Shown here piece after piece: positions 41,751 to 64,000 of a DNA stretch of 64,000 nt (the first letter of the stretch is position 1; the number at the start of each line of letters is the position of its first letter). Origin of the DNA: Planotetraspora sp. A-T 1434. GTDB taxonomy: Bacteria; Actinomycetota; Actinomycetes; Streptosporangiales; Streptosporangiaceae. The DNA is taken from contig NZ_JAOEGB010000017.1 in the NCBI RefSeq assembly GCF_025420585.1, forward strand, positions 1-64,000, in the 5' to 3' direction. The position numbers and the translations under genes are program-made. The notes beneath the pieces are model-generated. The model did not search any database. It was not told the DNA's origin and saw nothing but the letters and a program-made list of their open reading frames with translations.

Positions 41751-41808
41751 CGATTTGCCAGCGCAGATTGTTGGAGCGCGACGGGGGCCCACCATAGAAA
41801 GCAGGAGC

Positions 41809-42987: not shown

Positions 42988-43011
42988 CCGTAAACGCTGG
43001 GCCGTCAACGC

Positions 43012-44460: not shown

Positions 44461-44556
44461 GCTGTCCTTACCTAGAGGTGTTGGTATGGGTCGCGGGCAC
44501 GTCCGGTACGGCGACGCCCTCGTGGGGCGGTAGCCGTACCGGTGCCCGGAGAGGGA

Positions 44557-46421: not shown

Positions 46422-46426
46422 GATCC

Positions 46427-47761: not shown

Positions 47762-47865
47762 GTTCGTTTCTCCCTTTTCGATCCAGGGATGCGCACATAT
47801 GGGGGAGTCGGCGGGCCGCTCACCTCTTGATCGCTTTGCCTCCGGAGTGGCTGCCGCTAAACTAA

Positions 47866-47881
47866 CAAGAAACTTTCTTAA
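47866..47881. promoter_or_regulatory. ROK-type operator between ABC operon and second ROK gene
   Basis: CAAGAAACTTTCTTAA has a 13-bp palindromic core (AAGAAA-C-TTTCTT) in the 164-bp divergent promoter. It sits at the centre of the only AT-rich patch there, 45 bp before the ROK start. Confidence 0.6.
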
Positions 47882-47925
47882 AAAAAACCTGCGTTAGCGG
47901 ATCGTGACGAGAGGGGAGCCAGCCA

Positions 47926-49089
47926 GTGCCTCTACGACCGGGTACACCTCGGCTGTTACGCCAGATCAACGACCGGGCGGCACTGGAACTGCTCCTCTCG
48001 AAGGGGCCCCTGACCAGGGCCGAGCTGGGAGAGCTCACCGGGCTTTCGAAGGTCACCTCCGGCCAGCTCCTGTCGAGGCTGGAGACCCGCGGCCTTGTGA
48101 CGGCGGCCGGGGAGCGGCCGGGAGGGCGCGGCCCCAACGCCGCCCTTTACGGAGTGAATCCGGCAAGCGCCTACGTCGCGGGCCTGGAGGTCCTGCCGGA
48201 CAGCGTCACCGCGGGCGTGGCCGACATCACCGGGACGATCGTCGCCGAGATCACGGTCGACCCCACCGACGCGGGCGACCCGGTGAAGATGGTGCACGGA
48301 GCCGTCCTCCGGGCGTGCGAGTCGGCCGGCGTCGAGCTCTCCCAGCTCCGCTGCCTCGTCATCGGCACCCGCGGCGTCGTGGACCCCGCGACCGGTGAGG
48401 TCCGCTACTCCTTCGACCTGCCCGCCTGGCACGTGGGGATCCTCGGCGGCCTGCGGGCCCTCCTCGGCAAGCCGGTGATCATAGAGAACGACGTCAACCT
48501 GGCCGCCCTCGCCGAGCAGGCGTACGGCGCGGCCGAGGACGTGGACGACTTCGCCATCCTCTGGGCTGGCGTCGGCCAGGGCCTCGGCGTCATGCTCGGC
48601 GGCCGCCTGCACCGTGGCATCACCGGCGGCGCGGGGGAGATCGGCTGGCTGCCCGTCCCCGGGGAGCCGCTCCCGACCGACGTGACCGCGCCGCAGTCCG
48701 GCTCCTTCCAGCGCCTCATCGGCGGAGAGGCGCTCGCCGGCCTCGCCGCGGCCCACGGCGTGAGCCGGGACGACGGTGTGGCCGCCCTGGTCCGTACGGC
48801 TCTCGCCACCGGCAACTGGGCCTTCATCGACGAGCTGGCCGGACGGCTCGCGGTCGGCGTCGCCGCGGTGTCCGTCGTGCTCGACCCGACCCTCGTCGTC
48901 CTCAGCGGCGACGTCGGCCGGGCCGGGGGGCACGAGCTCGCCGCCCGGGTCGAGGAGTGCGTCGCGCGGGTGTGCCCCAGCAGGCCGGCCGTCGCGTGCA
49001 CCCGGGTCGAGGGCAACCCGGTGCTCCGGGGTGCGATCGTCGCGGCGCTGGAGCGGGCCCGTGAGGAAGTCTTCTCGGACACCGTGTGA
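47926..49089 (+). CDS. ROK-family transcriptional regulator 2
   Basis: Sugar-responsive regulator of 387 aa, close paralogue of the one at 41809-42987 over its whole length: HTH 'GPLTRAELGELTGLSKVTSG', actin-fold 'VADITGTIVAEITV', 'IGTRGVVDPATGEVRYSFDL', 'ENDVNLAALAEQAYGAAEDV' and 'GGAGEIGWLPVPG'. The zinc Cys cluster is absent, as in its paralogue. The start is GTG 47926 behind a GAGAGGGGAG string. It is divergent from the ABC operon and 16 bp upstream of the dipeptidase gene, probably in one transcript. Confidence 0.9.
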   Translation: MPLRPGTPRLLRQINDRAALELLLSKGPLTRAELGELTGLSKVTSGQLLSRLETRGLVTAAGERPGGRGPNAALYGVNPASAYVAGLEVLPDSVTAGVADITGTIVAEITVDPTDAGDPVKMVHGAVLRACESAGVELSQLRCLVIGTRGVVDPATGEVRYSFDLPAWHVGILGGLRALLGKPVIIENDVNLAALAEQAYGAAEDVDDFAILWAGVGQGLGVMLGGRLHRGITGGAGEIGWLPVPGEPLPTDVTAPQSGSFQRLIGGEALAGLAAAHGVSRDDGVAALVRTALATGNWAFIDELAGRLAVGVAAVSVVLDPTLVVLSGDVGRAGGHELAARVEECVARVCPSRPAVACTRVEGNPVLRGAIVAALERAREEVFSDTV

Positions 49090-49105: not shown

Positions 49106-49744
49106 ATGCCCATTCTGATCTCCGATCCCCGCGTGACCTCGATCCCCGTCGAGGAGTGCGGGGAGCCGCTGTGCGACGTCCGGGGGCGGCTCCGGCTCGA
49201 CAGACGGCTCGCCGACCCCGAAGGGGCCTACGCCCACCTGCGGGAAGGCGTGCTGGCCCGGCTGGAGGACGCGCAGAGCCGCCTTCCCGGCGGGTGCCAC
49301 ATCGTCGTGGTCGAGGGCTACCGGCCGATCTCGCTGCAGAGCCGGTACTTCGAGGAGTACAAGGCCGAGTTGGGCGCGCTGTATCCGGAAATGTCGGCCG
49401 GGGAGCTGCACAGCGCGGCCAGCCGGTACGTCTCTCCGGTCGAGGTGGCCCCCCACACGGCGGGCGCGGCCGTGGACCTCACCCTCTGCGACGACGACGG
49501 AACGGAGCTCGACATGGGCACGGCCGTCAACGACAACCCCGAGCAGAGCGACGGCGCCTGCTACACCGCCGCGCCCAACATCAGCGCGGACGCCCGGCAG
49601 AACCGCAAGGTCCTCGGCGTCGCACTGGAGGCCGCGGGCCTCGTCAACTACCCCACCGAGTGGTGGCACTGGTCCTACGGCGACCGCTACTGGGCCATGA
49701 CCCGACGGGCCCGCGCCGCCATCTACGGCCCCGTCACGCTCTGA
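49106..49744 (+). CDS. M15 D-Ala-D-Ala dipeptidase (VanX-like)
   Basis: Zinc D,D-dipeptidase of 212 aa. Zinc and catalytic residues: 'HTAGAAVDLTLCDDDGTELD' (His and Asp), and 'YPTEWWHWSYGDRYWA' with the catalytic Glu and third-ligand His. 'VVEGYRPISLQSRYF' carries the family Arg. No signal peptide, so cytoplasmic. Next to a ROK regulator, an ABC importer and a NagZ-like hexosaminidase it fits degradation of D-Ala-D-Ala from imported or recycled peptidoglycan fragments. No vanH or vanA gene is nearby, so glycopeptide resistance is not the likely job. Confidence 0.88.
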   Translation: MPILISDPRVTSIPVEECGEPLCDVRGRLRLDRRLADPEGAYAHLREGVLARLEDAQSRLPGGCHIVVVEGYRPISLQSRYFEEYKAELGALYPEMSAGELHSAASRYVSPVEVAPHTAGAAVDLTLCDDDGTELDMGTAVNDNPEQSDGACYTAAPNISADARQNRKVLGVALEAAGLVNYPTEWWHWSYGDRYWAMTRRARAAIYGPVTL

Positions 49745-49782: not shown

Positions 49783-51777
49783 TCAGCCTTTGACGGTCCG
49801 CCACCGCAGGGGCTGGCCGCCGCCCGCCGTCACCAGGCGGCCCGCGTGGGCGGCCAGGACGGCGGCGTCCGGCGCCTCGCCGAGGTCGGACCACTCTGCC
49901 GGTCCGTTGACCGGCAGACGGGTGCGGACGCGGTGGTCGTCCCCGAGAGCGTACAAACGTCCGTTGCTGCCGCTAAGACAGATGGCGCCGCCGGCGTCGC
50001 CGATGTCGCGCCACGGAGGCGGCGTCATCGTGGTCTCCGCCGCGACCGTGGTGCTCGCCGCCGTCTCGGTGAAGGTGGCGGCCCACAGGCGGCCGGTAGA
50101 GGTGGCGGCGAAGAAGGTGGAGTCGCTCACCCCCAGGGCCGTCGTTCCCGGCGGGACGCGCCCCACATCGATCCAGTCCGCCGGCTCCGGGCGCGCCTCG
50201 CGGTAGCGGAGCACGCCGTCGGTGGTCACACCGTACAGGCCGGTGCCGAGCCCGGCGGCGGCCTCGCGGGGGGCGTCGAGGCAGTGCACGCCGCCCGCCG
50301 AGCCGATCGGCAGCCACCTCAGGTTCTGCCCGCACAACTCACGGGTGAGCAGCGTGTCGCCGGCGCCCACGGCGTAGAGCGCCGAGCCGGAAGCGGCCAG
50401 CGCGCGGATGTCGGTGACCGGCCCGATCACCTCCCAGGCCGGTACGGCGGGCCGGGACAGCCGATCGACCACGTTTCTCGTGATCCGCTCCACTACCGGG
50501 TCGTGGAGGGTGTTGCCCCAGTTGATCGTGGCGGCGTTGAAGACCGTGCCGCGGCCGGAGGAGAAGACGCCCATCGTCGCCCAGCCGCCCTGGCCGCCGG
50601 AGCTCCAGTGCCGCAGGTCGGCCGTCGCCAGCACGACGAAAGACGGCGGCGTGCCGTCCCGGCAGGTGACCCGCGGCACGCCCAGGACCTCGGTGAACTC
50701 CGCGGCGTCGGTCTCGTAGCCGAGCGCGCCCTGACCGAACTTGTCGCCGTCGGTGAGCCCCGTGCCCTCGAACACCCAGTGCCCGGCGAACCTCGCGGTG
50801 TAGGCCTCCTCACGCATCAGCGCCATGTCCGGCCCCCACGTGCCCGCGCCGTTGCGGAAGCTCACGCCGGTCAGCGAGTTCTCCGGGCGGGAGACGGGCG
50901 CGCTCGACCACTCGACGGTCGTCAGACTCGGGTCCTCCACCGGGTCGGTCACGGGATCGCGGTGGCAGACCATGGTCCGGCCCTCGATCCGGATCTGCCA
51001 CCAGCAGGTGTTGCCGGCGAAGAACGCGATGTTCCCGCCGCGCCGGACGAACTCCTCGCACGCGTCCCGCATCTCGGCCGACCAGTACTCGTCGTGCCCG
51101 TTGACGATCAACAGCCGGTAGGCAGACAGGAGGCCGAGGTCGAGGTCGAGCCCGGAGCAGTATTCGGCCACGTAGCCGGCCGGGCCCAGCCAGCGGAGCA
51201 TGCCGTCCTCCCACCGCTCGGGCGGCGGGCCGCCACCGGGCCGGTCGAATGTCACCCGCGCCGCGCGGTCGGGCTGCTCGTTCCAGTAGACGCTCTCGCC
51301 GGGGATGCCCGCCCGGTTGTACGCCTGCCACGTGGCGAACGGGATGGACACCAGGATGGGGGAGGTCGCGCCGGGCGTGGCCTGCCGTACGACGAAATAG
51401 ACCTCGTTGTCGGGAGACGCGCCGGAACCGGGAAGGTCGCCCGACGCGCGGGAGACGAGCACGCCGGGCTCGGGCGGTCCGCTGACGAATCGCGCCCGGT
51501 AGAGCGAGCTCGGCCAGTCCGGCGGCACATCGAGGACCCACGACGGCCCGCGCACGGACGCCGTCAGCATCAGTGCGTCGTTCGTGGCGTCGTGTACGAC
51601 GACGCCCAGCGAGCCGTCCCCTTCCAGGCGGAACTCCAGCGCCTCGCCCTGCGCGCACGAGGTCGCGGTGGCGTAGGCGCGCACCTCGGTCATCTCACGG
51701 GTCATCTCACGGGCCACCTCAGGGGCCACCTCAGGGGCCACCTCAGCGGGCATCGCGGGGCTCATGTCAAGGCTCAT
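49783..51777 (-). CDS. N,N-dimethylformamidase-like hydrolase with C-terminal propeller-like domain
   Basis: Protein of 664 aa in the NRPS cluster. Residues ~50-430 resemble the C-terminal domain of the dimethylformamidase large subunit: 'ILVSIPFATWQAYNRAGIPG', 'YRLLIVNGHDEYWSAEMRDA', 'RRGGNIAFFAGNTCWWQIRI', 'WATMGVFSSGRGTVFNAATI' and 'NWGNTL'. Residues ~435-664 are repetitive units ('LYAVGAGDTLLTRELCGQNL', 'LYGVTTDGVLRYREARPEPA', 'LYALGDDHRVRTRLPVNGPA') suggesting a beta-propeller or lectin-like tail. The first 35 residues are 12-bp-repeat-encoded AEVAPEVA/REMTREMT sequence. ATG 51777 overlaps the C-domain stop. Probably an amidohydrolase or amide-forming tailoring enzyme; substrate unknown. 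Confidence 0.75.
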   Translation of the reverse strand: MSLDMSPAMPAEVAPEVAPEVAREMTREMTEVRAYATATSCAQGEALEFRLEGDGSLGVVVHDATNDALMLTASVRGPSWVLDVPPDWPSSLYRARFVSGPPEPGVLVSRASGDLPGSGASPDNEVYFVVRQATPGATSPILVSIPFATWQAYNRAGIPGESVYWNEQPDRAARVTFDRPGGGPPPERWEDGMLRWLGPAGYVAEYCSGLDLDLGLLSAYRLLIVNGHDEYWSAEMRDACEEFVRRGGNIAFFAGNTCWWQIRIEGRTMVCHRDPVTDPVEDPSLTTVEWSSAPVSRPENSLTGVSFRNGAGTWGPDMALMREEAYTARFAGHWVFEGTGLTDGDKFGQGALGYETDAAEFTEVLGVPRVTCRDGTPPSFVVLATADLRHWSSGGQGGWATMGVFSSGRGTVFNAATINWGNTLHDPVVERITRNVVDRLSRPAVPAWEVIGPVTDIRALAASGSALYAVGAGDTLLTRELCGQNLRWLPIGSAGGVHCLDAPREAAAGLGTGLYGVTTDGVLRYREARPEPADWIDVGRVPPGTTALGVSDSTFFAATSTGRLWAATFTETAASTTVAAETTMTPPPWRDIGDAGGAICLSGSNGRLYALGDDHRVRTRLPVNGPAEWSDLGEAPDAAVLAAHAGRLVTAGGGQPLRWRTVKG

Positions 51778-53048
51778 CTCAGGGCCGCCTCGACGATCAG
51801 CCTCTCCAGCCCGAACAGGAACCGCTCGATGTCCTGCCTGGACAGCCAGCGGGTGTCGGCGGTGAGCGAGACCTGCATCGCGCCCGACAGGTGCACGCAG
51901 AACCGGCAGTTGAGCTGCTCCTGGCTGAGCGGCCAGGTCAGCGACGACTCCGACAGCGCCTGCCGGATCAGCGCCTCGTCGCGGTCGACGGCCTGCTCGG
52001 TGAAGCGCATGTCGTTGAAGCAGCAGTAGGGATGGATCGGCGTGCCCCGGTCCCGGCTGGTCTCGGCGACGATCCGCTCCCGGTCGGCCGGATCGTGGTA
52101 GGCGCTCCGGTAGGCGCGCAGCACCGCCGGGTGGGCGGTGGCCAGCAGGTCGGCGAACCGGGACTTCTCCACGTCGAGGACGAACAGCCCCTCCTGCGAC
52201 AGCGTGGTTACGGCGGTGCGGGTGTCGGCGCGGAAGCGGTTGCTCACGATGGGCAGCACGGCCACGGTCTCGTGGCCGGTAACCTCCGCGACCAGCGCGC
52301 TCACCGCCGTGAGCAGCACCGTCGAGGTGCTCGTGCCGTGCCGTACGGCGAGGCGCTGGGCGGCCAGGTCGATCGCAGGCGAGTTCAGCGTGCCCCGCCA
52401 GATCGGCGGCAGCTCGGCCCCGCCCGACGGCACGTGGAACATCGTGGGCGGCATCCTGCGGTGCTCGCGCTCCCAGTAGGACGCGGCGCTCCACGCCTGC
52501 CGCCGTCCGGCCGGCGACTCCTGCCACAGGGCCAGGTCGAACGGCTGCGGGGGAGCGCCGCCCTGGAGCCTGCCACGCAGGAGCAGCAGCCTGAGGTCCC
52601 GGACGACCTCCTCCGCGCCCAGGCCGTCGGAGGCCATGTGGCAGAAGGCGAGCACCACGTGGGTGACCTCGTCGCCGCGCGTCACGAGCGCGACCCGGAG
52701 CGGCCACTCGGACGCGTAGGCGAAGGCGTTCGCGGTCAGCTCGGCCAGGATCTCGGCGGGGTCCGCGTCCGCGACGATCCGGACCGCCAGCTCGCCGCGG
52801 TCGCGCAGGTCCTGGCACGGTCCCGGCCCGACGAGCGTGCGCAGGGACTCGTGCCGCTCCAGCAGCAGGCCGATCCCGCGCGACACGTGGGCGACCGAGG
52901 CGGGCCGCGCGCCGCGCGGGACCTCCAGCACCCGGCCGAAATTGAAGTAGTGGTCGTCGGGCGCGGTCCGCTCGATGGTGTCCCAGATCGCTCGCTGTCC
53001 CCAGGTGAGCGGGGCCGTGCCGGACCGCGCGCCCGAGAAGGCGATCAC
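51774..53048 (-). CDS. Stand-alone NRPS condensation-domain protein
   Basis: Single condensation-like domain of 424 aa. N-terminal 'PLTWGQRAIWDTIE' corresponds to core C1. The active-site motif reads 'CHMASDG' (Cys136-His137...Asp141-Gly142): the catalytic second His and the Asp-Gly are kept, but the first His is Cys. The C-terminal half has the expected 'VAVLPIVSNRF' and 'TTLSQEGLFVLDVE' chloramphenicol-acetyltransferase-like strands. Start ATG 53048 overlaps the PCP stop by 4 bp. It may condense, esterify or release an acyl chain carried on the free PCP just upstream. Confidence 0.85.
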   Translation of the reverse strand: MIAFSGARSGTAPLTWGQRAIWDTIERTAPDDHYFNFGRVLEVPRGARPASVAHVSRGIGLLLERHESLRTLVGPGPCQDLRDRGELAVRIVADADPAEILAELTANAFAYASEWPLRVALVTRGDEVTHVVLAFCHMASDGLGAEEVVRDLRLLLLRGRLQGGAPPQPFDLALWQESPAGRRQAWSAASYWEREHRRMPPTMFHVPSGGAELPPIWRGTLNSPAIDLAAQRLAVRHGTSTSTVLLTAVSALVAEVTGHETVAVLPIVSNRFRADTRTAVTTLSQEGLFVLDVEKSRFADLLATAHPAVLRAYRSAYHDPADRERIVAETSRDRGTPIHPYCCFNDMRFTEQAVDRDEALIRQALSESSLTWPLSQEQLNCRFCVHLSGAMQVSLTADTRWLSRQDIERFLFGLERLIVEAALR

Positions 53049-53281
53049 CGGGCCGCCGACACCCAGGCGGCCAGCCCTTCGACGCTGTCGAGGAAGGAGA
53101 CGTCCCCGCCCAGGTCGATCTCCACGTCGTACTCCCGCTCGACCGCGTCGATCAGCCGCATCTGGGCCAGGGAGGTGACGCCGAGGTAGGACAGCGGGAC
53201 CGACGCCTCCAGGACCTCGGCCGCCGTGATCTGCCCGTCACACGACTCCGACACCAGCTCGGCCAGTCTTTCCTTGAGCAT
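53045..53281 (-). CDS. Free-standing peptidyl/acyl carrier protein
   Basis: Carrier protein of 78 aa. The phosphopantetheine site is 'LGVTSLAQMRLIDAVE' (Ser37), with Thr where Asp or His is more common before the Ser. ATG 53281 has a good AAAGG Shine-Dalgarno, so the start is firm. Consequently the gene overlaps the 3' end of the giant NRPS gene by 44 bp. Its neighbours downstream are the free C domain and the DMFase-like enzyme, with ATGA couplings. Confidence 0.85.
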   Translation of the reverse strand: MLKERLAELVSESCDGQITAAEVLEASVPLSYLGVTSLAQMRLIDAVEREYDVEIDLGGDVSFLDSVEGLAAWVSAAR

Positions 53282-56200
53282 CGTTTACCTTTCTGTGCTG
53301 GAGACCCACGAGGTCGTCGGGGGTCGCGTCCGGGACCTCGTCGTCGAACCGGGCCAGGACGGGGGCCGCCATCGCGCCGAGCGCGACGACGGCGATGAAG
53401 GCGGCGAACACGACGTACATCGCGCCGATGCCGCTGAGGAGGCGGACGCCGAGCGGGGCGATCACGCCGACTCCGAGCGGGATCGTTGACCAGGCCACCA
53501 TCTGGTTGAGCGCGAACACCCGGCCGTGGAACCGCTGGGGCACCTTCACCTGGATGATCGTCGCGTAGACGCCGTTGACGAGGGCCAGGCCGTACGACAC
53601 TCCGAAGGCGCCGATCCCGATGAGGAGCAGCGACGTGTCCAGGCCGACGACCAGGCAGGAGACGGCGATGAGGAGCGTGGCCAGGAGCAGGCCGCGCATC
53701 CGGCTGTGGCGGGGGCCGCCCCACACGGCCATCGTGAGGCCGCCGGCGACCGCGCCGACCCCGGCGACCAGCGCGATCGCGCCCGCGTCGGCGAGCGTGC
53801 CGAACGACAGGACCAGGGGCGAGTACATCATGAACACCGGCGACAGCCCCAGCGACAGCAGCGCGAAGAAGATCACCATGGCGCGGAAGCTCCGGTTGCC
53901 CACCGAGAGCCGGAAGCCTTCGGCGATCTCGCGTCCGACCGTCTCCCGTCGCCGGTGCGCCATGGTCGCAGGGAAGGCCACCAGCGCCAGGACGGTGAGG
54001 GTCACGACGTGCCCGGCGACGTCGAGCACGAGGATGCCCTTCAGCCCGGCGACCGAGAGCAGGCCCACGGCGACCAGCGGCGCGACGAACTGGGCGACGC
54101 CGAGCGTCATCTGCGCGACGCCGTTCGCATGCCCGAGGTAGCGCTTGGGCACGAGTTGCGGTACGGCCGACGTGAAGGCCAGCCGCTGGAACGTCAGGGC
54201 GACCGACAGCGCCGCCAGCAGGACGTACAACGGCCAGGCGGCGAGCTTCCCCGTCCACAGCAGGAGCGCGGCGGCCGCCTGGATCCCCAGCGCCGCCGAG
54301 TTGCCCGCGATCATCACCGCGCGCCGGCTCGACCGGTCCACGACCGCCCCGGCGAGCGGGGCCGCCAGGATCCCGGGGATCACCGCCAGCACCTGGAGCA
54401 CGGCGAGCTGGGCCATCGACCCGGTCCGCAGGTACATCCATACCGGGATCGCGAACTCCGTCAGCGTCGAGCCGACCAGGCACGCCATCTGGCCCGTCGC
54501 CACCGTCAGGAACCGGCGCAGCGTCGGCTCCGGCCCCCGAGGCTTCTCCTCGGCCAGCCCGTCGTGGGTGGTGGTGACGATGGCCGCCAGCTCTTCAGCC
54601 CGATATTTCAGGAAATAGTGGCCACCTTCGTCGAGAACGACGAGGGCCGTCGTGCCGGTGAGGAAGCCCCACTCTCGATAGCGCTCCTCGTAGTAGTCCG
54701 TCGCGGGGTCGTATTCGCCCACGACCGAGATGATCGGCGCCGACAGCTTCTCCACCCCGGCGTCGATCAGCCGGGTGAAGTAGTCCTCGGCCTCGCGGGC
54801 GTCGTGCCGCATGTTGCGGATGATGAACGCCTTCTGGTCCTCGGTCAGGCCCGACAGGTCGGCGCCGAGCGCGGTCAGCCAGTTGATCTGCGCGCGGTCG
54901 CTGCGCAGGCGATCCAGCCGGGTGACGGCGGCCCAGCGGCCCATCAGGCCCTTCGTCGGCCGGGCGAACGGGAAGATCCCGCCCATGTAGACGGCCTCGA
55001 CCGCTCGGCCCCTCGCCTCCAGCCGACGGGCGATCTCCACGATCAGCGCGCCGCCGACGCCGCAGTGGCCGTACAGCGCGACCGGGCCCGTCACCTTCTC
55101 CAGGATCTCCTGGACGCATCGCGCCGCGACCTCCTCCAGCGGCCGGGGCTCCTCCGCCAGCCCGAGGTCGTGGCCCGGCACGGCGACAGAGAACAGCGCG
55201 CAGGTCTCCGGCAGCGCGTCTGCCAGCGGCTGGTAGACCACCGCGCTGCCCCCGCCGTACGGCACGCAGACCAGGCTGAGCGTGGCCTCGCGACCTGGTG
55301 GCGTCAGCTCGTACAGCAGGCCGCGCGGGGCGCCGCCGGTTGTGGCGAGCTCCGCCAGTTGCCTGATAGTGGGCCGCTGGAAGAGGTCCATCAGGCTGAT
55401 CGGGTGGGCGGGAAGCTCGCGCCGCAGGCGGGCGACCACGCGGGCGGCCAGCAGCGAATGGCCGCCGAGGTCGAAGAAGTCGTCGAGCACACCCGCGTGG
55501 CGCAGGCCGAGCACGTCGCACCAGGCCGCGGCGATGATCTCCTCGATCTCGCCGGCCGGAGGCTCGAACGGCACGTCCTGGTCGGGCCGCTCGTCCTCAG
55601 GCTCGGGCAGGGCGGCGCGGTCGACCTTGCCGTGCCCCTTCAACGGCAGCTCGTCCAGCCAGACGTAGCGGGTGGGGATCATGTATTCGGGCAGCCGCGT
55701 GCCGAGCTCCCGTCGCAGCTCCGCGACGCTCGCCCGCTCGCCCACCAGGTAGGCGACGAGTTCCCCTCGGCGGGCCTCGGTCACCGCGTGGGCGACGCCC
55801 GGGCAGAGCCGCAGGGCCTCGTCCACCTCGCCGAGCTCGACCCGATAGCCGCGGATCTTGACCTGGTGGTCGCGGCGGCCGAGGAACTCCAGGTCGCCGC
55901 CCGGGAGCCAGCGCGCGAGGTCGCCGGTCCGGTAGATCCGGCCGTGCCCGGACTCGACGAAGGCCGCCTCGGTGAGATCGGGCCTGCCCAGGTAGCCGCG
56001 GGCCAGCCGGTCGCCGCCGATGTACAGCTCGCCGGCCACGCCGATCGGCACGGGCCGCAGGTGCGCGTCTAGCACGAGGACCCTGGCGTGGCCGAGGGGA
56101 CGGCCGATGGGGGTGGTCGGACCGGTCGGATCGACGTCGGCCCCGACCCGGTAGGTCGTGACGCCGATAGTCGCCTCGGTGGGGCCGTAGTGGTTGACCA

Positions 56201-58364
56201 CCTCTCCGAGAGCGGCGAGCTCGCGGGTCCACTCCCAGCTCGACCCCTCGCCGCCCAGGATCAGCAGCCGCCTCGGCATCAGCTCGCGCACGTCCACGTC
56301 GGCCGCGAGCGCGGCGAGATGGGACGGCGTCATCTTGAGGTAGTCGACCTCCGGCATGCGCGCGGCCAGCTCGGGGGCGGAGATCCGCGACGGCACCATG
56401 TGTACGGTGCCCCCGGTCATCAGCGACAGGTAGAACACCGTCATGCCGAAGTCGAACGTGAGCGACTGCGGCAGCGCGAAGCTCGCGCCCTCGGTGACGC
56501 CGAACCTGTCGCGCACGTCGGCCAGGTAGTTCATGACCTGCCGGTGCTGTACGGCGACGCCCTTGGGGCGCCCCGTCGATCCGGAGGTGTAGATCACGTA
56601 GGCCAGGTCGTCCGGCGCGGGCGGCGGCCAGGCGTCCATCGTCCCGATATCGTCGGGGCCGATGACCGGACCGGCGAAGACAGGGAGGTTCGCGGTTCCG
56701 ATGACCACAGCGACGCCGTCCAGCATGTGACTGAGCCGCTCGGCGGGCTGCTCGGGATCAAGGGGCACATACGCGCCGCCCGCCTTCAGCACCGCGACGA
56801 TGGCGACCGCCTGGTCGAGCGACTGCTCCAGGCAGATGCCGACCGGGACGTCGGCCCCCACGCCCAGCTCACGCAGCCGCGCGGCCAGCCCGCCCGCCCT
56901 CGCGTCCAACTCGGCGTAGGTCAGCGCGGCCTCGCCGTACCGGACGGCCACCGTCGCCGGAAAGCGGCGCGCGGTGGTCTCGACCAGCGCGGCCAGCGTG
57001 GGCGCGGGCGGCTCTGGTGTGGGAGAGCCGGCGCTCCATCCCGTCAGGACGGCCCGCTCCGCGGGGGCGAGCAGGTCCAGCTCGGAGACCGGCGCGCCGG
57101 GGTCGGCCACGATGGACCACAGGAGGGTCTCGAAGTTCGCGGCGAACCGTTCGACGGTCTCCCGCTCGAACAGGTCGGCGCTGTGGACGAAGAACGCGTC
57201 GAGCCCGCCGCCGGACGGGAGGACCTCCAGCGACAGGTCGAACTTCGACTGCTGGAAGCCGGGGTCGTACCGCTCGGCGGTGATCCCGGCCAGGGTCAGG
57301 CCCTCGTTGGTCTCGCTGCGCAGGCTGAACTGCGTCTGGAAGACCGGCGTCCGGCTGAGGTCGCGCTCGGCCCTCAGCTCGGTGACGAGCCGGTCGAACG
57401 GCGTGTCCTGGTGGACGAACGCGTCCACCACGGTCGCGCGAGTGCGGCGGAGCAGCTCCCGGAAGGAGGGATCGCCGGAGAGGTCGGCCCTGATGGCCAG
57501 CGTGTTGAGGAAGAGCCCGATGAGCCCTTCGGTGTCCTCGTCCTCGCGGGCGGCCACGGGGGAGCCCACGCAGAAGTCCGTCTGGCCCGAGTAGCGGCAG
57601 AGCTGGGTCTGGAAGGCCGCCATCAGCAGCATGTAGAGCGTCACCCGCTCGGACCTGGCCAGCCGCACGAGCTGGCCGGTCAGAGAGGACGGCAGCCGCC
57701 AGGTGACGCAGCCGCCGCGCGAGGTCCTGACGCGGGGACGAGGCCGGTCGGCGGGAAGCTCCAGGACCGGCGCCCCGGCCAGCAGCTCCCTCCAGTGGGC
57801 GAGCGACCCGTCATGGGTCTCGGCACGCTGGCGGATCGCGTGGTCGGCGTATCGCATCGGTAACTCGGGGACCGAGGGGGGCGTGCCGTCGCGGAAGGCC
57901 TCGTAGTGGGCTGCCAGCTCGCGCAGCAGGATCCCCAGCGACCACCCGTCGCCGGCGATGTGGTGCAGGACGATGACGAGGACGTGCTCCCTGGGGGCCA
58001 AGCCGATGAGGCGGGCCCTGATCACCGGGCCGCGGGCCAGATCGAACGGGCGGTTGGTGACCTCGGCGACCAGCGCGGCCGCCCGAGCCTCGTCCTCCGC
58101 GGCCACCCGCTCCAGCGTGAGCCCGGTGGCCTCGACCACCTGCACGGGACGGCCGTCCACCGCCGGGTAGCGGGTGCGCAGCACGTCATGCCGCTGGACG
58201 ATCGCGTCGAGGGCGCGCTCCAGCGCGTTCGCGTCGAGAGGCCCGTGGAGCCTCTCGGTTACGCAGATGTTGTATGACGCGTCGCTGGGGTTGAGCTCGT
58301 GCAGGAACCAGAGCCGTTCCTGTCCGAGGGAAAGCGGGATCTCCGAAATGGCAAGCATCTCCAC
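53238..58364 (-). CDS. NRPS C-A-PCP-TE fused to an MFS exporter
   Basis: One uninterrupted 1708-aa protein. Condensation domain ~1-430 with 'LHHIAGDGWS' (residues 134-140); adenylation domain ~450-930 ('YVIYTSGSTGRPKG', 'NHYGPTEATIG', 'YRTGDLARW', 'KGHGKVDR'); PCP with 'FFDLGGHSLLAARVV' (Ser ~970); thioesterase ~1030-1270 with 'LYGHCGVGG' (Cys ~1100 instead of Ser), 'GEYDPATD' and 'DEGGHYFL'; then a ~420-residue MFS permease with about 12 hydrophobic segments ('VVDRSSRRAVMIAG' loop). By-eye specificity residues DFTKIGHIGK approach known Asp codes. Start: GTG 58364 with a GGGGG ribosome site; ATG 58358 is possible, TTG 58403 unlikely. The ~25-residue tail overlaps the PCP gene. Confidence 0.9.
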   Translation of the reverse strand: MEMLAISEIPLSLGQERLWFLHELNPSDASYNICVTERLHGPLDANALERALDAIVQRHDVLRTRYPAVDGRPVQVVEATGLTLERVAAEDEARAAALVAEVTNRPFDLARGPVIRARLIGLAPREHVLVIVLHHIAGDGWSLGILLRELAAHYEAFRDGTPPSVPELPMRYADHAIRQRAETHDGSLAHWRELLAGAPVLELPADRPRPRVRTSRGGCVTWRLPSSLTGQLVRLARSERVTLYMLLMAAFQTQLCRYSGQTDFCVGSPVAAREDEDTEGLIGLFLNTLAIRADLSGDPSFRELLRRTRATVVDAFVHQDTPFDRLVTELRAERDLSRTPVFQTQFSLRSETNEGLTLAGITAERYDPGFQQSKFDLSLEVLPSGGGLDAFFVHSADLFERETVERFAANFETLLWSIVADPGAPVSELDLLAPAERAVLTGWSAGSPTPEPPAPTLAALVETTARRFPATVAVRYGEAALTYAELDARAGGLAARLRELGVGADVPVGICLEQSLDQAVAIVAVLKAGGAYVPLDPEQPAERLSHMLDGVAVVIGTANLPVFAGPVIGPDDIGTMDAWPPPAPDDLAYVIYTSGSTGRPKGVAVQHRQVMNYLADVRDRFGVTEGASFALPQSLTFDFGMTVFYLSLMTGGTVHMVPSRISAPELAARMPEVDYLKMTPSHLAALAADVDVRELMPRRLLILGGEGSSWEWTRELAALGEVVNHYGPTEATIGVTTYRVGADVDPTGPTTPIGRPLGHARVLVLDAHLRPVPIGVAGELYIGGDRLARGYLGRPDLTEAAFVESGHGRIYRTGDLARWLPGGDLEFLGRRDHQVKIRGYRVELGEVDEALRLCPGVAHAVTEARRGELVAYLVGERASVAELRRELGTRLPEYMIPTRYVWLDELPLKGHGKVDRAALPEPEDERPDQDVPFEPPAGEIEEIIAAAWCDVLGLRHAGVLDDFFDLGGHSLLAARVVARLRRELPAHPISLMDLFQRPTIRQLAELATTGGAPRGLLYELTPPGREATLSLVCVPYGGGSAVVYQPLADALPETCALFSVAVPGHDLGLAEEPRPLEEVAARCVQEILEKVTGPVALYGHCGVGGALIVEIARRLEARGRAVEAVYMGGIFPFARPTKGLMGRWAAVTRLDRLRSDRAQINWLTALGADLSGLTEDQKAFIIRNMRHDAREAEDYFTRLIDAGVEKLSAPIISVVGEYDPATDYYEERYREWGFLTGTTALVVLDEGGHYFLKYRAEELAAIVTTTHDGLAEEKPRGPEPTLRRFLTVATGQMACLVGSTLTEFAIPVWMYLRTGSMAQLAVLQVLAVIPGILAAPLAGAVVDRSSRRAVMIAGNSAALGIQAAAALLLWTGKLAAWPLYVLLAALSVALTFQRLAFTSAVPQLVPKRYLGHANGVAQMTLGVAQFVAPLVAVGLLSVAGLKGILVLDVAGHVVTLTVLALVAFPATMAHRRRETVGREIAEGFRLSVGNRSFRAMVIFFALLSLGLSPVFMMYSPLVLSFGTLADAGAIALVAGVGAVAGGLTMAVWGGPRHSRMRGLLLATLLIAVSCLVVGLDTSLLLIGIGAFGVSYGLALVNGVYATIIQVKVPQRFHGRVFALNQMVAWSTIPLGVGVIAPLGVRLLSGIGAMYVVFAAFIAVVALGAMAAPVLARFDDEVPDATPDDLVGLQHRKVNDAQGKTGRAGVGVV

Positions 58365-58430
58365 CGGCGTGAGCCCCCAAGTGGTCGGATGAATGCAGCC
58401 CAAATAGCCGAGGTAGGCGCCCCGGCAAGA

Positions 58431-58610: not shown

Positions 58611-58663
58611 CCGGGTCCCGGCCCGCTGGCCGGGTGCAATTCATCCGATCTATCGGGGACATA

Positions 58664-60115
58664 ATGAGAACCGCGCTCGAGGTGCCGACGCTTCCCGACC
58701 TCCTGGCGGCCCGTGCCGCCGCCGAGACGGGTGGCGTCGCCATGATCGTGCACGGGTCCGGGGAGCTCACCTTCGGCGAGTGGGACGAGCGGTCGAACGC
58801 CGTCGCCAACGCGCTGCTCGCCCGCGGCGTCGGCCACGGCGACCGGGTGGGGCTGGTCTTCCCCGGCGCGGCCTGGATGGACTACGCCGTCGCGTTCCTC
58901 GGCGTGCTGAAGGCGGGCGCGGTGGCCGTGCCGCTCTCCGACCGGATGCCGCCCGCGGAGATCGGCCAGATCGCCTCGCACTGCTCGACGTCTCTCATCA
59001 TCACCGACCTGCACGAGCTTCCGAAGGGTTCGTCGGAGGCGCCCGGGGTGGCGCTCGGGCCGGGCGACGTGGCGCAGATCCTCTACACCTCCGGGACCAC
59101 CGGCAGGGCCAAGGGCGTCGCCGCCACGCACGCCAACCTGGCATTCGGCGCGCAGCGGCAGCCGCGGCGCAGGGCGTTCGCCCACTCCCGGCACCTGGTC
59201 CACGCCTTCCCGATCGGCACCAACGCCGGGCAGATGATGCTGTTCAACGCGCTGAACGCGCATCCGGCCGTGGTGACGTTGCCTCGCTTCACGCCCGGCC
59301 GTTTCGCCGGACTCATCGAGAAATATCAGGCTGGAACGGTCTTCGTCGTGCCGGCGATGGCCATTGAGCTGCTCGGCAACCGGGTGAGCTACGACCTGTC
59401 CAGCGTGCTGCTGCTCGGCTCGGCCGCCGCGCCGCTGCCGTCGGCGGTCGCGACGGGGCTCACCGAGATGTTCCCCAACGCGACGATCACGAATTACTAC
59501 ACCTCGACCGAGGCGGCCCCGGCGCAGACGATCATGATTTTCGACCCGGACCGTCCCGGATCCGTGGGCAGGGCCGCGGCGGGCGGCGGCGTCCGGATCT
59601 GGTCGTCCGAGCGCGAGGCCGTCCCTCCCGGTGAGATCGGCGAGGTCTGGATGCGCTCACCGGCCGCACCCCGCTCCTACTACAACGACTCCGGATCCGA
59701 CGTCTTCCGCGAGGGCTGGATCCGGATGGGCGACCTCGGCTACCTCGACGAGGACGGCTACCTCTACCTGGTCGACCGGGAGAGCGACGTCGTGAAGTCG
59801 GGCGCGTTCAAGGTCTCCACGCTGAAGGTCGAGGACGCCCTGCACCGGCATCCCGCCGTGATCGAGGCGGCGGCCTACGGCGTTCCGCATGCCGTGCTCG
59901 GCACGGCTGTCGCGGCGGCCGTCGTGCTGCGGGCCGAGGTGCCGAACGTGGAGCTGAGGGCCTTCCTGGGCGACCTGCTGGCCCAGCACGAGATCCCCGC
60001 CGAGATCGTCAGGATGGACGTCCTTCCGAGGAACCACAGCGGCAAAGTGGACAAGCGAGCGCTGCGGGCAGCGTCGCAAGCAGGGTCACAAGCAGTGTCG
60101 GGAGCGGGGTCATGA
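58664..60115 (+). CDS. Stand-alone AMP-dependent ligase / adenylation enzyme
   Basis: ANL-superfamily enzyme of 483 aa that would activate a carboxylic acid as the adenylate and load CoA or a carrier protein. Motifs: 'QILYTSGTTGRAKGVAATHA' (A3), 'NYYTSTEAAP' (A5), 'MGDLGYLDEDGYLYLVDRES' (A7/A8) and 'NHSGKVDKRAL' (A10 Lys). It looks more like an acyl/aryl-acid ligase than an amino-acid A domain, so the substrate is open. ATG 58664 has GGGGA five bases upstream. It is the first gene of the rightward arm; its stop overlaps the next start by 4 bp. Confidence 0.87.
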   Translation: MRTALEVPTLPDLLAARAAAETGGVAMIVHGSGELTFGEWDERSNAVANALLARGVGHGDRVGLVFPGAAWMDYAVAFLGVLKAGAVAVPLSDRMPPAEIGQIASHCSTSLIITDLHELPKGSSEAPGVALGPGDVAQILYTSGTTGRAKGVAATHANLAFGAQRQPRRRAFAHSRHLVHAFPIGTNAGQMMLFNALNAHPAVVTLPRFTPGRFAGLIEKYQAGTVFVVPAMAIELLGNRVSYDLSSVLLLGSAAAPLPSAVATGLTEMFPNATITNYYTSTEAAPAQTIMIFDPDRPGSVGRAAAGGGVRIWSSEREAVPPGEIGEVWMRSPAAPRSYYNDSGSDVFREGWIRMGDLGYLDEDGYLYLVDRESDVVKSGAFKVSTLKVEDALHRHPAVIEAAAYGVPHAVLGTAVAAAVVLRAEVPNVELRAFLGDLLAQHEIPAEIVRMDVLPRNHSGKVDKRALRAASQAGSQAVSGAGS

Positions 60116-61587
60116 GCGCCGGGACGGACGCCGCGCCGGCGCAGGTGTCGTTCGCCCAGGTGGGGATGTGGATCACCGAGCGGATGGGCCGCGCGGGCTC
60201 CGCGTACCACATGCCCCTGCTCATCACCCTCGACGGCCCGCTCGACCCCTGCGCGCTGATCCAGGCGTGCGAGGCGCTGATCCGGCGGCATCCCATCCTG
60301 TCGAGCGCGATCGAGGAGCGCGACGGCATCCTGGTCGAGGTCCCCGGCGCCCGCCCGCCGATCAGGGTGACGGTCGCCGGCGACCTCGACGAGCTGGTGC
60401 GCGAGGAGACCCTGCGGCCGTTCGACGTCGAGCGGGGACCGCTGGCGCGGATCACGCTGGCCCGCGTCTCGCCCACCCGCCACGTCCTGATCTTCGTGGC
60501 CCATCACCTCGTCTTCGACGGCGAGTCGAAGGACGTGCTGGTCCGGGACCTGGCCGCCTTCTACAACGGCGTTCCGCTCGTCCGCCTGCCCGTGTCGTAC
60601 GCCGCGCACGCCGAGGCGGAGCGCGACCGGGTGGCCGCCGACCTCGACGCGGCCCGTGACTACTGGCGCGAGCACTGGCGGGAGCCGGGCGAGGTCGCCC
60701 TGCCGGGACTGTCCGGCGCGCCCTCACGCGGAGCCGCCGAAGGGTTCGTGCACACCTTCCGGGCGGAGCTGCCCGACGTGCCCGGCGCCTCCCGTTTCGA
60801 GGTGTTCCTGGCGTGCGTCCACGCGCTCCTGTTCGCGTACGGCAACGCCGAGCCGGTCTGCGCGATCGATGTGTCCACCCGGACGCCCGAGGTCCGCGAC
60901 CACATCGGGCTGTTCGTCAACGAGCTTCCCGTGTCGTCCACGCCCTGTCCCGGTATGACGGTCGCCGCCCTCGCCGTCCGGCTCCATGGGGACCTGCGGG
61001 AGATGTACCGGTTCCGCCCGGTGCCGGTCGCCCGCGCCGTCCGGGGGCTCCGGCCCCGTACGGCACTGGCCCCCGTCTCGGTGAGTTACCGCAAGCGGCG
61101 GGCGGATCCACGGTTCGCCGAGCTGGATGCCGCCGTGGACTGGACGGTCTTCAACCACGCGGTCCGCAGTGCTCTGCACCTCCAGGCGGTCGACGGCCCC
61201 GACGGCCTCACCGTGATCATGCAGTACAGCTCAAGCGTCCTTGTGACCCAAATAGCGAAGGACCTCACCGCAATCATGAAAAATCCGGACACTGTCCTGG
61301 GGGAGATCGTGGCAGGCCGTACGGAACCGGCGAGCCTCGCGGACGAGATCAGGGCCATCTGGCAGGAGGTGCTCGGCATCGACGAGATCGGTGACGAGGA
61401 GGACCTCTTCGACCTGGGCGGTCACTCTCTGACCATCACGCAGATCATCGCCCGCATGCGCAAGCGCCTCGGCATCGAGGTGCCGCTCGACGTGTTCTTC
61501 GACACCCCCACGATCGCCGGGGTCCTCGAGTCGATCGGCGACTCGGTGGAGGCCGGACGGTCCGACGTGGCGGGCAGCCGCCGGTGA
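60112..61587 (+). CDS. NRPS condensation-PCP didomain protein
   Basis: Protein of 491 aa. Condensation domain ~10-410 with an intact 'HHLVFDG' (131-137), then a carrier domain with 'LFDLGGHSLTITQIIARMRK' (Ser439). There is no adenylation domain, so the PCP must be loaded in trans, most simply by the preceding ligase, or acylated by the E1/E2 set that follows. ATG 60112 overlaps the ligase stop; its own stop overlaps the E1 alpha start. Confidence 0.9.
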   Translation: MSAGTDAAPAQVSFAQVGMWITERMGRAGSAYHMPLLITLDGPLDPCALIQACEALIRRHPILSSAIEERDGILVEVPGARPPIRVTVAGDLDELVREETLRPFDVERGPLARITLARVSPTRHVLIFVAHHLVFDGESKDVLVRDLAAFYNGVPLVRLPVSYAAHAEAERDRVAADLDAARDYWREHWREPGEVALPGLSGAPSRGAAEGFVHTFRAELPDVPGASRFEVFLACVHALLFAYGNAEPVCAIDVSTRTPEVRDHIGLFVNELPVSSTPCPGMTVAALAVRLHGDLREMYRFRPVPVARAVRGLRPRTALAPVSVSYRKRRADPRFAELDAAVDWTVFNHAVRSALHLQAVDGPDGLTVIMQYSSSVLVTQIAKDLTAIMKNPDTVLGEIVAGRTEPASLADEIRAIWQEVLGIDEIGDEEDLFDLGGHSLTITQIIARMRKRLGIEVPLDVFFDTPTIAGVLESIGDSVEAGRSDVAGSRR

Positions 61588-62510
61588 CGGAGCCGGCCGC
61601 AACACTCGTCCGGCTCCCTCGGGCGGCCGACGAAGACCTCGACCTGCTGCTTCTGATCAGGCACTTCGAGCTCGCCCTGCTCGACCTCTTCGGCCGGGGC
61701 GAGCTCAACGGCACGACCCACACCTGCGTCGGCCAGGAGTACGTCCCCGTCGCGCTCCGGCGGCTGCTCGGGGAGACGGACTACGTGTTCAGCAACCACC
61801 GGGGGCACGGCCACTACCTCGCGAGGTTCGACGACCCGGAGGGGCTGCTCGCCGAGATCATGGGACGGGAGGGGGCCGTCTGCAACGGGGTGGGCGGCAG
61901 CCAGCACATCCTCCGGGACCGCTATGTGTCCACCGGCGTCCAGGGTGAGAGCCTCCCCGTGGCCACCGGAGCCGCGCTGCACCTGAAGCGCACCGCGCCC
62001 GGAGCCCTGGCCTGCGTCTACATCGGCGACGGCACCTGGGGGGAGGGCGCCGTCTACGAGGCGCTGAACCTGGCCTCGCTCTGGCGGCTGCCGCTGCTGA
62101 TCGTCGTCGAGCACAACGGGATCGCGCAGTCAACGCCCACGGCTCGCCAGATGGCCGGGACCGTGCGCTCCCGCGCCCAGGCGTTCGGCGTGCGCCACCA
62201 CGGCATCGAGACCTCCGATCTCAACGCGATCAGGCACGAACTCGCGCCGCTCGTGGCGGAGGTGCGGTTCGAAGGCCGGCCACTGGTCGTCGAGTTCGTC
62301 ACGCATCGGCTCGGCCCGCACAGCAAGGGCGACGACACCCGTCCCCCCGAGGTCGTCGAGCACGCGCGGGCCCGCGACTGGTACGGCCTCTACGCCGAGG
62401 CCCATCCCGAGCAGTTCGCCCGCGCGGACGAGGCCCAGCGCGCCCGAGTCGCGGCGATCGTCCAGGACGTCTCCGCCCGTCCGCTCTCGGGGTGGGATCC
62501 GTGCGCGTAG
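61584..62510 (+). CDS. 2-oxoacid dehydrogenase-type E1 alpha subunit (TPP)
   Basis: Thiamine-diphosphate enzyme subunit of 308 aa. TPP-binding motif 'YIGDGTWGEGAVYEALNLAS' (GDG...N). 'THTCVGQEYVPVALRRLL' and 'SNHRGHGHYLARFDDPEGLL' with 'GVGGSQHI' match E1 alpha of the acetoin/branched-chain/pyruvate dehydrogenase type. It would decarboxylate an alpha-keto acid (or take a ketol unit) and pass it to the lipoyl protein encoded downstream. Start GTG 61584 overlaps the C-PCP stop. Its presence in an NRPS operon suggests a biosynthetic acyl donor role and argues against central metabolism. Confidence 0.88.
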   Translation: MTEPAATLVRLPRAADEDLDLLLLIRHFELALLDLFGRGELNGTTHTCVGQEYVPVALRRLLGETDYVFSNHRGHGHYLARFDDPEGLLAEIMGREGAVCNGVGGSQHILRDRYVSTGVQGESLPVATGAALHLKRTAPGALACVYIGDGTWGEGAVYEALNLASLWRLPLLIVVEHNGIAQSTPTARQMAGTVRSRAQAFGVRHHGIETSDLNAIRHELAPLVAEVRFEGRPLVVEFVTHRLGPHSKGDDTRPPEVVEHARARDWYGLYAEAHPEQFARADEAQRARVAAIVQDVSARPLSGWDPCA

Positions 62511-63493
62511 CGGAGAACCTCAACGCCGCCCTGCACGGCCTGCTGGAGGCCGACCCTTCGGCGTACGTGATCGGCGAGGACATCCTCGACCCGTACGGCG
62601 GCGCCTTCAAGATCACCAAGGGGCTGTCCAGCCGGTTTCCCGATCGGGTGCTCGGCACGCCCATCAGCGAGTCCGGCATCACCGGCCTCGCCGCCGGGCT
62701 CGCCCTGTGCGGTGACGCGGCCATCGTCGAGATCATGTTCGGCGACTTCGTGGCGCTGGCCTTCGACCAGATCGTCAACTTCGCCGCCAAGTCGGTCTCG
62801 ATGTACGGCTCGCACGTCCCGATGCGGATGGTCGTCCGGTGCCCCACCGGGGGCGGCCGCGGCTACGGCCCGACCCACAGCCAGAGCATGCAGAAGCACT
62901 TCATCGGCGTGCCGGGGCTGTCGGTCTACGAGATGTCGCCGCTCCACGACAACCGGGCAGTGCTCGCCGCCATGCTGGCGTCGGGCGGGCCGTCCGTGTT
63001 CTTCGAGGACAAGGTCCTCTACACCCTGCGCATGCACGACGTCGGCGACCTGTTCCGGCACGACTTCGTGCCGGGGACCGACGTCGCCCGGGTCTTCCTC
63101 GACGACCCGTCGGCGGCCGACTGCGTGATCATCGCCCCCGGCGGGATGGTCGACCGGGCGGTCCGGGCCATGCGGACGCTCCTTCTGGAGCACGAGGTGA
63201 CGTGCTGCCTGCTCGTCCCCTCGCGGCTCTACCCATTCGACGCCGAGCCGCTGCTTCCCGCTCTCCGGGGGGCGAGAGCCGTACTGGTGGCGGAGGAGGG
63301 CACCGCGGGCGGGACCTGGGGGAGCGAGGTGGCCCAGCGGATCCACCGGCTCATGTGGAAGGATCTCCGGCGGCCGGTGACGCTCGTCCACTCCGCCGAC
63401 AGCGTGATCCCCACCGCCGCTCATCTGGAGCGGCGGGTGCTCGTGCAGGAGTCCACGATTCACGACGCGGTGCTGGAGGCCCTGCGTGACTGA
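62501..63493 (+). CDS. 2-oxoacid dehydrogenase-type E1 beta subunit
   Basis: Transketolase-like pyrimidine-binding subunit of 330 aa. 'VIGEDILDPYGGAFKITKGL', 'PISESGITGLAAGLALCGDA', 'EIMFGDFVALAFDQIVNFAA' and 'RCPTGGGRGYGPTHSQSMQK' are characteristic of E1 beta. Start GTG 62501 is chosen over GTG 62492 because GGTGGG sits at the right distance; it overlaps the E1 alpha stop by 10 bp. It pairs with E1 alpha to form the TPP active site. Confidence 0.9.
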   Translation: MRVAENLNAALHGLLEADPSAYVIGEDILDPYGGAFKITKGLSSRFPDRVLGTPISESGITGLAAGLALCGDAAIVEIMFGDFVALAFDQIVNFAAKSVSMYGSHVPMRMVVRCPTGGGRGYGPTHSQSMQKHFIGVPGLSVYEMSPLHDNRAVLAAMLASGGPSVFFEDKVLYTLRMHDVGDLFRHDFVPGTDVARVFLDDPSAADCVIIAPGGMVDRAVRAMRTLLLEHEVTCCLLVPSRLYPFDAEPLLPALRGARAVLVAEEGTAGGTWGSEVAQRIHRLMWKDLRRPVTLVHSADSVIPTAAHLERRVLVQESTIHDAVLEALRD

Positions 63494-64000
63494 TATCCGG
63501 GTGCCGAAGCTCAACAACAACGACACCTCCTACATCCTGATCGAATGGCTCGTCGAGGACGGCCAGCAGATCAAGGCCGGCGACCCCGTCGCGGTCCTGG
63601 AGACCTCCAAGGCGACGGAGGAGCTGGTCAGTGAGGAGGACGGCTTCCTCTGGCAGGCCCTCCCACTCAACGCCGACTGCCCGCCCGGCGCGCTCATCGC
63701 CCGGCTGACGAGCGAGGAGGTCCGGCCCGGCTCCGAAGCCGGGGCACGGGACGGCGGGGCGGGGCACGCCAGGTCGTGGGACGGCGGAGCTCGGGATGGC
63801 GCGGCGGGCGACGGCGCGGCGGGGAATGGCGCGTCCGGCGCCGAACCGCTGATCACCGCGCCCGCGCAGGCGTTGATCGACCAGCTGGGCATCGACCTGG
63901 CGGACGTGCGCGCCCTCGGCGTGTCCGTCGTCCGCCGCGCGGATATCGAACGGCTCGCCGCGACCCGTTCCGAGGCGAGCACGCGCCCGGAGGGCACCCC
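63486..64000 (+). CDS. Lipoyl-domain E2-like protein, truncated by window edge
   Basis: Partial protein (first ~171 aa). Begins with a lipoyl domain 'IRVPKLNNNDTSYILIEWLV', lipoylation Lys42 in 'LETSKATEEL'. A Gly/Ala/Asp-rich repetitive linker (about 85-115) follows, then a peripheral-subunit-binding domain 'LITAPAQALIDQLGIDLADV' ending 'VVRRADIERLAA'. The acyltransferase domain, if present, lies beyond 64000. Start GTG 63486 overlaps the E1 beta stop by 8 bp. It would carry the acyl unit from E1, possibly to a carrier protein in place of CoA. Confidence 0.85.
   Translation, partial: MTDIRVPKLNNNDTSYILIEWLVEDGQQIKAGDPVAVLETSKATEELVSEEDGFLWQALPLNADCPPGALIARLTSEEVRPGSEAGARDGGAGHARSWDGGARDGAAGDGAAGNGASGAEPLITAPAQALIDQLGIDLADVRALGVSVVRRADIERLAATRSEASTRPEGT

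Follow-up and report, generated by a model that had tools for sequence, protein, structure and literature searches.

A predicted glycolyl-loading two-component transketolase of the split, SclQ-like form in a gene cluster of the Streptosporangiaceae

Planotetraspora sp. A-T 1434 has an actinobacterial genome of 7.8 Mb, and the DNA analyzed here (the window) comprises the first 64,000 bases of its 176,879-base contig NZ_JAOEGB010000017.1. Five plus-strand genes lie at the end of the window. The last three encode the two halves of an E1 enzyme (E1 alpha and E1 beta) and a lipoyl-bearing acyltransferase (lipoyl-E2), and this trio, which follows an acyl ligase and a didomain of the nonribosomal peptide synthetase (NRPS) type, is the subject of the present study.

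58634–60115, plus strand: stand-alone acyl/aryl-AMP ligase of the ANL type, 493 aa, the first gene of the operon (Pfam AMP-binding, 2.2e-61)
60112–61587, plus strand: didomain of a condensation domain and a peptidyl carrier protein (C-PCP), candidate glycolyl acceptor (Pfam Condensation, 2.5e-39; PP-binding, 3.1e-19)
61584–62510, plus strand: E1 alpha, 308 aa, the half binding thiamine diphosphate (ThDP), predicted SclQ2/QncN/NapB type (Pfam E1_dh, 8.6e-40; tree; clade-fixed residues)
62492–63493, plus strand: E1 beta, 333 aa, the pyrimidine-binding and transketolase-C half, predicted SclQ3 type (Transket_pyr, 9.2e-24; Transketolase_C, 3.8e-11; clade-fixed residues)
63486–64709 (63486–64000 inside the window), plus strand: lipoyl-E2 acyltransferase, 407 aa, predicted SclQ4 type (Biotin_lipoyl, 6.2e-9; 2-oxoacid_dh acyltransferase, 1e-37)

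The five genes overlap end to start, by 4 bases (ligase and C-PCP), 4 bases (C-PCP and E1 alpha), 19 bases (E1 alpha and E1 beta), and 8 bases (E1 beta and lipoyl-E2), as computed with first-start calls. The last three overlaps had been pointed out in the original prediction, and they hold. The C domain of the C-PCP protein retains an intact HHLVFDG motif, its PCP reads GGHSL, and the lipoyl lysine motif of the lipoyl-E2 is ETSKA. The lipoyl-E2 gene extends 709 bases beyond the window, and the contig contains the complete acyltransferase domain that was looked for past position 64000. It is followed at 64713–65639 by a minus-strand gene, the translation of which reads by eye as a short-chain dehydrogenase (all gene calls outside the window are heuristic). 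The operon stops after the lipoyl-E2 gene without a gene for lipoamide dehydrogenase (E3), and the catabolic gene set that would have pointed to an ordinary dehydrogenase is not found downstream. Among the 29 lipoamide dehydrogenase matches listed genome-wide, none lies on this contig; two, on contigs C1 and C72, score above the NCBIfam cut-off.

The original prediction likened the trio to the ThDP/lipoyl systems of the naphthyridinomycin type and regarded clustering with ordinary dehydrogenases as the contrary outcome. A quick maximum-likelihood tree was built from E1 alpha only, using 90 rows: the window protein, 80 relatives (the best 80 of 122 from one scan of genome contigs), and nine lower-scoring E1 alpha proteins as the outgroup. 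Eight of the nine came from family genomes and one from the genome of the strain itself, none being specifically identified as acetoin-type; of the 12 control stretches sampled, L159, L160, and L161 yielded no E1 alpha row. The window protein and all 80 relatives formed an 81-row clade apart from the nine ordinary E1s (SH-aLRT 100). The clade includes L145 (Umezawaea tangerina), L092 (Streptomyces griseus subsp. griseus NRRL WC-3645), and L135, in which E1 beta and E2 form one protein and a NapC-like acyl carrier protein (ACP) is encoded between E1 alpha and E1 beta. A ketoacyl synthase III (KASIII) gene is present in L092 and L145, the two loci examined for it. Because the ACP lies between E1 alpha and a fused E1 beta-lipoyl-E2 protein, and KASIII occurs in L092 and L145, we regard this layout as that of the nap and din loci; these NapB/NapD-type reference rows were identified by architecture and not by accession. 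Clade E1 alpha occurs in 83 of the 250 family genomes at an E-value of 1e-100 or better, and a match at 1e-70 or better was found in 18 of 392 Streptomyces genomes. The latter gave 16 stretches, in ten of which E1 beta and E2 share one frame, as in the NapD-type arrangement. A search for SclQ2–4 by exact protein lengths found no three-way match in these 16 stretches or in the 80 named loci, and a viral-contig search with E1 alpha returned eight pattern matches with no relative among them.

Both E1 subunits have residues that are invariant within the clade and seldom occur elsewhere, and all three NapB/NapD-type rows share them in both subunits. Examples in E1 alpha (81 of 81 rows) are T44, T45, T47, Q107, Q120, G153, Y158, I180, Q182, P245, K248, and D251; examples in E1 beta are D33, Y35, S46, R123, Y125, T128, K135, H136, E147, and R222 (78 of 78 rows, as L091, L109, and L154 end before E1 beta). 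T44 and T45 align with the Phe-Cys pair of human pyruvate dehydrogenase (PDH) E1 alpha, just before a His that we take to be an active-site residue. K135 and H136 of E1 beta lie six and seven residues past H129, presumably the catalytic His by homology. These positions suggest that T44-T45 and K135/H136 may take part in binding a sugar phosphate. In E2, the motif DHRxxDG is replaced by DHRxxNG in 76 of 78 clade members, including the window (DHRLINGR); one exception, L149, has G at this position, and the other, L105, shows no such motif. L149 is a basal Paractinoplanes member, its E2 motif reading DHRVLGGRD. Among the outgroup open reading frames (ORFs) taken as E2 or E2-like, the position is occupied by D in four and by Q in one (further DHR matches in ORFs of L163, L164, and L165 were set aside as not E2). 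The shared E1 residues, the D-to-N change in E2, and the grouping of E1 alpha with NapB-type rows bear out the likeness to the naphthyridinomycin-type systems.

The closest counterpart is the scleric acid cluster of Streptomyces sclerotialus, in which, according to the available part of PMC6335953, SclQ1 (an ACP of 76 aa), SclQ2 (305 aa), SclQ3 (338 aa), and SclQ4 (386 aa) are encoded. In both clusters, E1 alpha, E1 beta, and the lipoyl-acyltransferase are separate proteins, nearly equal in length between the two and encoded in the same order, with a carrier just before E1 alpha; both also have a C-A-PCP NRPS (A, adenylation domain) together with an exporter of the major facilitator superfamily (MFS). 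The two differ in that the carrier is a C-PCP didomain here and the 76-aa ACP there, that an ANL ligase stands here in place of an ATP-grasp enzyme and benzoate genes, and that the NRPS here carries a fused thioesterase (TE) and MFS transporter and an Asp-like code, whereas the code described for the scl enzyme is Pro. Genes for a phosphopantetheinyl transferase or butenolide regulators were not noticed in the present cluster, although no dedicated search was made. As far as that source covers it, deletion of sclQ1–4 left residual product and glycolic acid restored production, and QncN, QncL, and QncM are reported as shown to form and attach a glycolicacyl unit (PMC6335953). For NapB/NapD homologues, the available text of PMC7570522 states that a hydroxyethyl unit is made from xylulose-5-phosphate and handed to an ACP. 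Likeness to NapB/NapC/NapD (naphthyridinomycin), DinU/DinT/DinS (dnacin), and QncN/QncM/QncL (quinocarcin) comes through the members identified by architecture, which share the E1 alpha clade, the same diagnostic residues, and the DHRxxNG motif of E2. In those systems, however, E1 beta, the lipoyl domain, and E2 form a single protein, which is split here; nap- and din-like loci have the ACP between E1 alpha and the fused protein, whereas the carrier here lies upstream of E1 alpha; and tetrahydroisoquinoline genes were not recognized here. Plu2796–2798 of the Photorhabdus pepteridine pathway are also PDH-like E1/E2 proteins lacking an E3, and priming of an NRPS carrier has been proposed for them, but there the E2 is fused to thiolation and condensation domains, the donor is a 2-oxo acid, and pteridine genes are present (PMC5384830, in the part available).

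These comparisons led us to regard the trio as a well-supported further member of the predicted glycolyl-loading two-component transketolases, in the split, SclQ-like form. We consider it likely that it is a system of the NapB/NapD, QncN/QncL, and SclQ2–4 type which, with its own lipoyl-acyltransferase, places a glycolyl group on a carrier. For the donor, the identity of the glycolyl unit, the acceptor, and the order of assembly, we infer the following scheme. E1 alpha and E1 beta with ThDP would take a two-carbon unit from a ketose phosphate, a donor suggested by the family, and acylate the lipoyl arm of E2, forming glycolyl-lipoamide. The glycolyl group would then be transferred by E2 not to CoA but to a carrier phosphopantetheine, most likely that of the PCP in C-PCP, and a housekeeping lipoamide dehydrogenase would re-oxidize the lipoyl arm. 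An acyl group activated by the ligase, and perhaps held on a stand-alone ACP, may next be attached to the glycolyl hydroxyl by the C domain of C-PCP, and the divergent C-A-PCP-TE enzyme would append an amino acid, predicted from its code to be Asp.

The cluster spans approximately 15 kb (49783–64709) between a VanX-like gene and a helicase gene. Its remaining genes are on the minus strand.

53238–58403, minus strand: divergent NRPS with C-A-PCP-TE fused to an MFS transporter (Pfam; TE motifs)
53045–53281, minus strand: stand-alone ACP, 78 aa, alternative acceptor or carrier of the ANL ligase (Pfam PP-binding, 3e-6; relatives in 32 other loci)
51774–53048, minus strand: stand-alone condensation-like protein, motif CHMASDG (Pfam Condensation, 4e-13)
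49783–51777, minus strand: N,N-dimethylformamidase beta-like protein (DMFA2_C), the end of the cluster (Pfam, 2e-70; start codon hand-chosen)

The carrier next to the E1 genes is part of a protein with a C domain, and the cluster also encodes a separate ACP. Among the 81 loci including the window, an upstream carrier (one ending at most 500 bases before E1 alpha on the same strand) was found in 37. It is stand-alone in 11 of these: L101, L103, L107, and eight loci of Streptosporangium, Planobispora, and Planomonospora, where it is a PCP of the C-PCP type (76–79 aa) and the C domain was seen as a separate ORF in seven of the eight. Three of the 81 loci have a carrier between E1 alpha and E1 beta, and eight have one downstream of E2; the 12 control stretches, which are mostly ordinary E1 loci and only 6–7.5 kb long, show none. 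Since the window PCP sits directly upstream of E1 alpha, it occupies the place of SclQ1, and on this gene order (synteny) only, the acceptor is probably the PCP of C-PCP. In the Nonomuraea loci L100, L106, and L120, the trio is present and no carrier protein was found within the fetched 10-kb flanks.

Several observations weigh against our interpretation of the trio and its acceptor. The NapB-type reference rows rest on architecture and not on the SclQ, QncN, or NapB sequences; the tree was made quickly, its outgroup branches are long (the tool issued a warning on this), and its rows were chosen by similarity to the window; and the best Pfam and NCBIfam names are ordinary PDH-like ones, all under the NCBIfam cut-offs. 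Of the 87 genomes with a C-PCP-like match, 79 carry clade E1 alpha and eight do not, and four of the 83 clade E1 alpha genomes have no C-PCP-like match. No carrier was found in the fetched flank of six of the 81 loci (L100, L105, L106, L120, L149, and L154, of which L105 and L154 are short contig pieces), and in many loci, for example the Microbispora group, none abuts the E1 operon. PDH-like names would also suit a pepteridine-like function, in which decarboxylation of a 2-oxo acid (pyruvate or 2-oxobutyrate) would supply an acetyl or propionyl group for loading onto the carrier, and a pathway with a PDH-like E1, an E2-thiolation-condensation fusion, and no E3 of its own has been proposed for pepteridine (PMC5384830, as far as available). 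We consider this unlikely, since E1 alpha clusters with the NapB-type rows and carries the clade-specific basic and small polar residues (in a tree without the pepteridine proteins), and since the E2 here is a separate 407-aa protein, not fused to thiolation or condensation domains. An ordinary catabolic or branched-chain 2-oxo acid dehydrogenase (BCKDH) lying beside the NRPS genes by chance appears very improbable. The families and the best solved relatives do belong to the PDH/BCKDH superfamily, but the contig has neither E3 nor catabolic genes, the genes overlap C-PCP, E1 alpha is in a clade separate from the nine ordinary E1s, the E2 motif has N and not D, and the whole block is absent in five relatives examined.

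More serious is the possibility that the same glycolyl system loads the stand-alone ACP at 53045–53281, the PCP of C-PCP being charged by the ligase or another enzyme; we hold this to be possible but clearly the less probable arrangement. In the descriptions available, the acceptors that are known or have been proposed, NapC/DinT and SclQ1, are each a stand-alone ACP. A profile of NapC-type ACPs matched the 53045–53281 family marginally best of the three carrier families (82.6, 75.7, and 70.9% probability), but the gaps are too small to decide, and a hidden Markov model of three NapC-type ACPs picked the same family in many loci with weak E-values of about 0.03–0.4. On the other hand, this ACP is on the opposite strand about 8 kb away, while stand-alone carriers in other loci lie directly upstream of E1 alpha, and in eight loci it is the C-PCP-type PCP itself that stands alone at this place. 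The original proposal that the PCP of C-PCP is loaded agrees with the gene order, and the stand-alone ACP is kept beside it as a possible acceptor.

The A-domain code of the NRPS reads DFTKIGHIGK, with positions hand-placed against the GrsA numbering, and DFTKxGHxGK recurs in 32 of the 43 rows, the window among them, for which the TE was aligned. We take this code to be near that for Asp. In the TE, with triad positions read from the alignment and not from a structure, Cys replaces Ser at the nucleophile place (YGHCGVGG in the window) in 42 of the 43 rows, the exception being L102 with Ser; Asp is absent from its usual place and found at the second position in all 43. The TEs of ObiF1 and SulM, which close four-membered rings, have a Cys nucleophile and second-position Asp, but some type II TEs also have the latter, according to the available part of PMC11298585, and for this reason the likeness is a lead only. 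The simplest product using the ligase, the glycolyl trio, C-PCP, and the NRPS would be a scleric-acid-like acyloxyacetyl-amino acid; acyloxyacetyl-aspartate is our guess. A longer chain of assumptions, which we put forward as speculation, would make this a widespread cluster family in which the glycolyl group, derived from a sugar phosphate, is esterified on the PCP of C-PCP with the ligase-activated acyl group and, in clusters of the extended form, handed to the Asp-specific module; the Cys-TE, its Asp placed as in ObiF and SulM, would close a strained ring such as a beta-lactone or beta-lactam, and the fused MFS pump would export the product.

With identity cut-offs of 50% for the ANL ligase and 40% for C-PCP, the fetched flanks of 44 of the 80 loci contain both, and none contains one without the other. 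All 54 family genomes with a match of at least 55% identity to the stand-alone C protein also carry clade E1 alpha (overlap read off by hand). The TE was not seen in the fetched flank of 11 of the 44 ligase/C-PCP loci, including L078, L082, and L137 (L091 is cut); L078, where the sequence is unbroken between the ABC gene and the helicase, lacks the C-A-PCP-TE-MFS gene and represents a minimal form. The interval between the VanX-like gene and the helicase was examined in five family genomes that lack clade E1 alpha, and the cluster is missing from it in all five. The matches to these two genes end about 40 bases apart in G080 and about 1.2 kb apart in G177, and the intervening DNA in G095 and G068 has no strong match to window genes. 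The G076 site (L229:14783–16066) retains a lone C domain with the catalytic motif HRLVFDD and without the PCP, a decayed C-PCP remnant. Because of these sites, 49783–64709 seems to come and go as a unit.

The VanX-like D-Ala-D-Ala dipeptidase gene (M15, 49106–49744) was considered as a cluster member and rejected, because it is also found in genomes without a clade E1 alpha match (G076, 83% identity; G095, 82%; G177, 78%; G080, 76%); matches at 1e-25 or better occur in 106 of the 250 family genomes. Farther upstream, 41755–49089 encodes a GH3 enzyme, a sugar ABC transporter, and two ROK regulators, possibly a locus for cell-wall or chitin sugars, which adjoins the cluster in several genera. 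A role in N-glycolylmuramic acid formation, prompted by these neighbors, was dropped because the substrate-binding protein and ROK genes nearest the site persist in relatives without the cluster. In Streptomyces noursei (L107:9630–20866), the trio and an ACP adjoin a modular polyketide synthase, an arrangement that suggests glycolyl use in a polyketide. In another Streptomyces locus (L131:7464–14676), the trio is accompanied by a ketosynthase, an ACP, and a NAD_binding_4 reductase-like protein, and nothing in the fetched flanks matches the window NRPS genes; a carrier occupies the same position in several Streptomyces loci.

Literature searches, judged by titles and abstract openings, found no description of such a cluster, its product, or this machinery in it. 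Glycolyl loading by a two-component transketolase has been described for tetrahydroisoquinolines and scleric acid in the sources as available, so this rare kind of loading machine is known; what is new is its setting in a cluster without a described product in these searches. The cluster is found across many genera of the Streptosporangiaceae, where the trio marks a gene-cluster family. Candidate diagnostic residues, including the DHRxxNG motif of E2, separate these enzymes from housekeeping dehydrogenases, and their simplicity should facilitate mining for the family and direct tests of its product.

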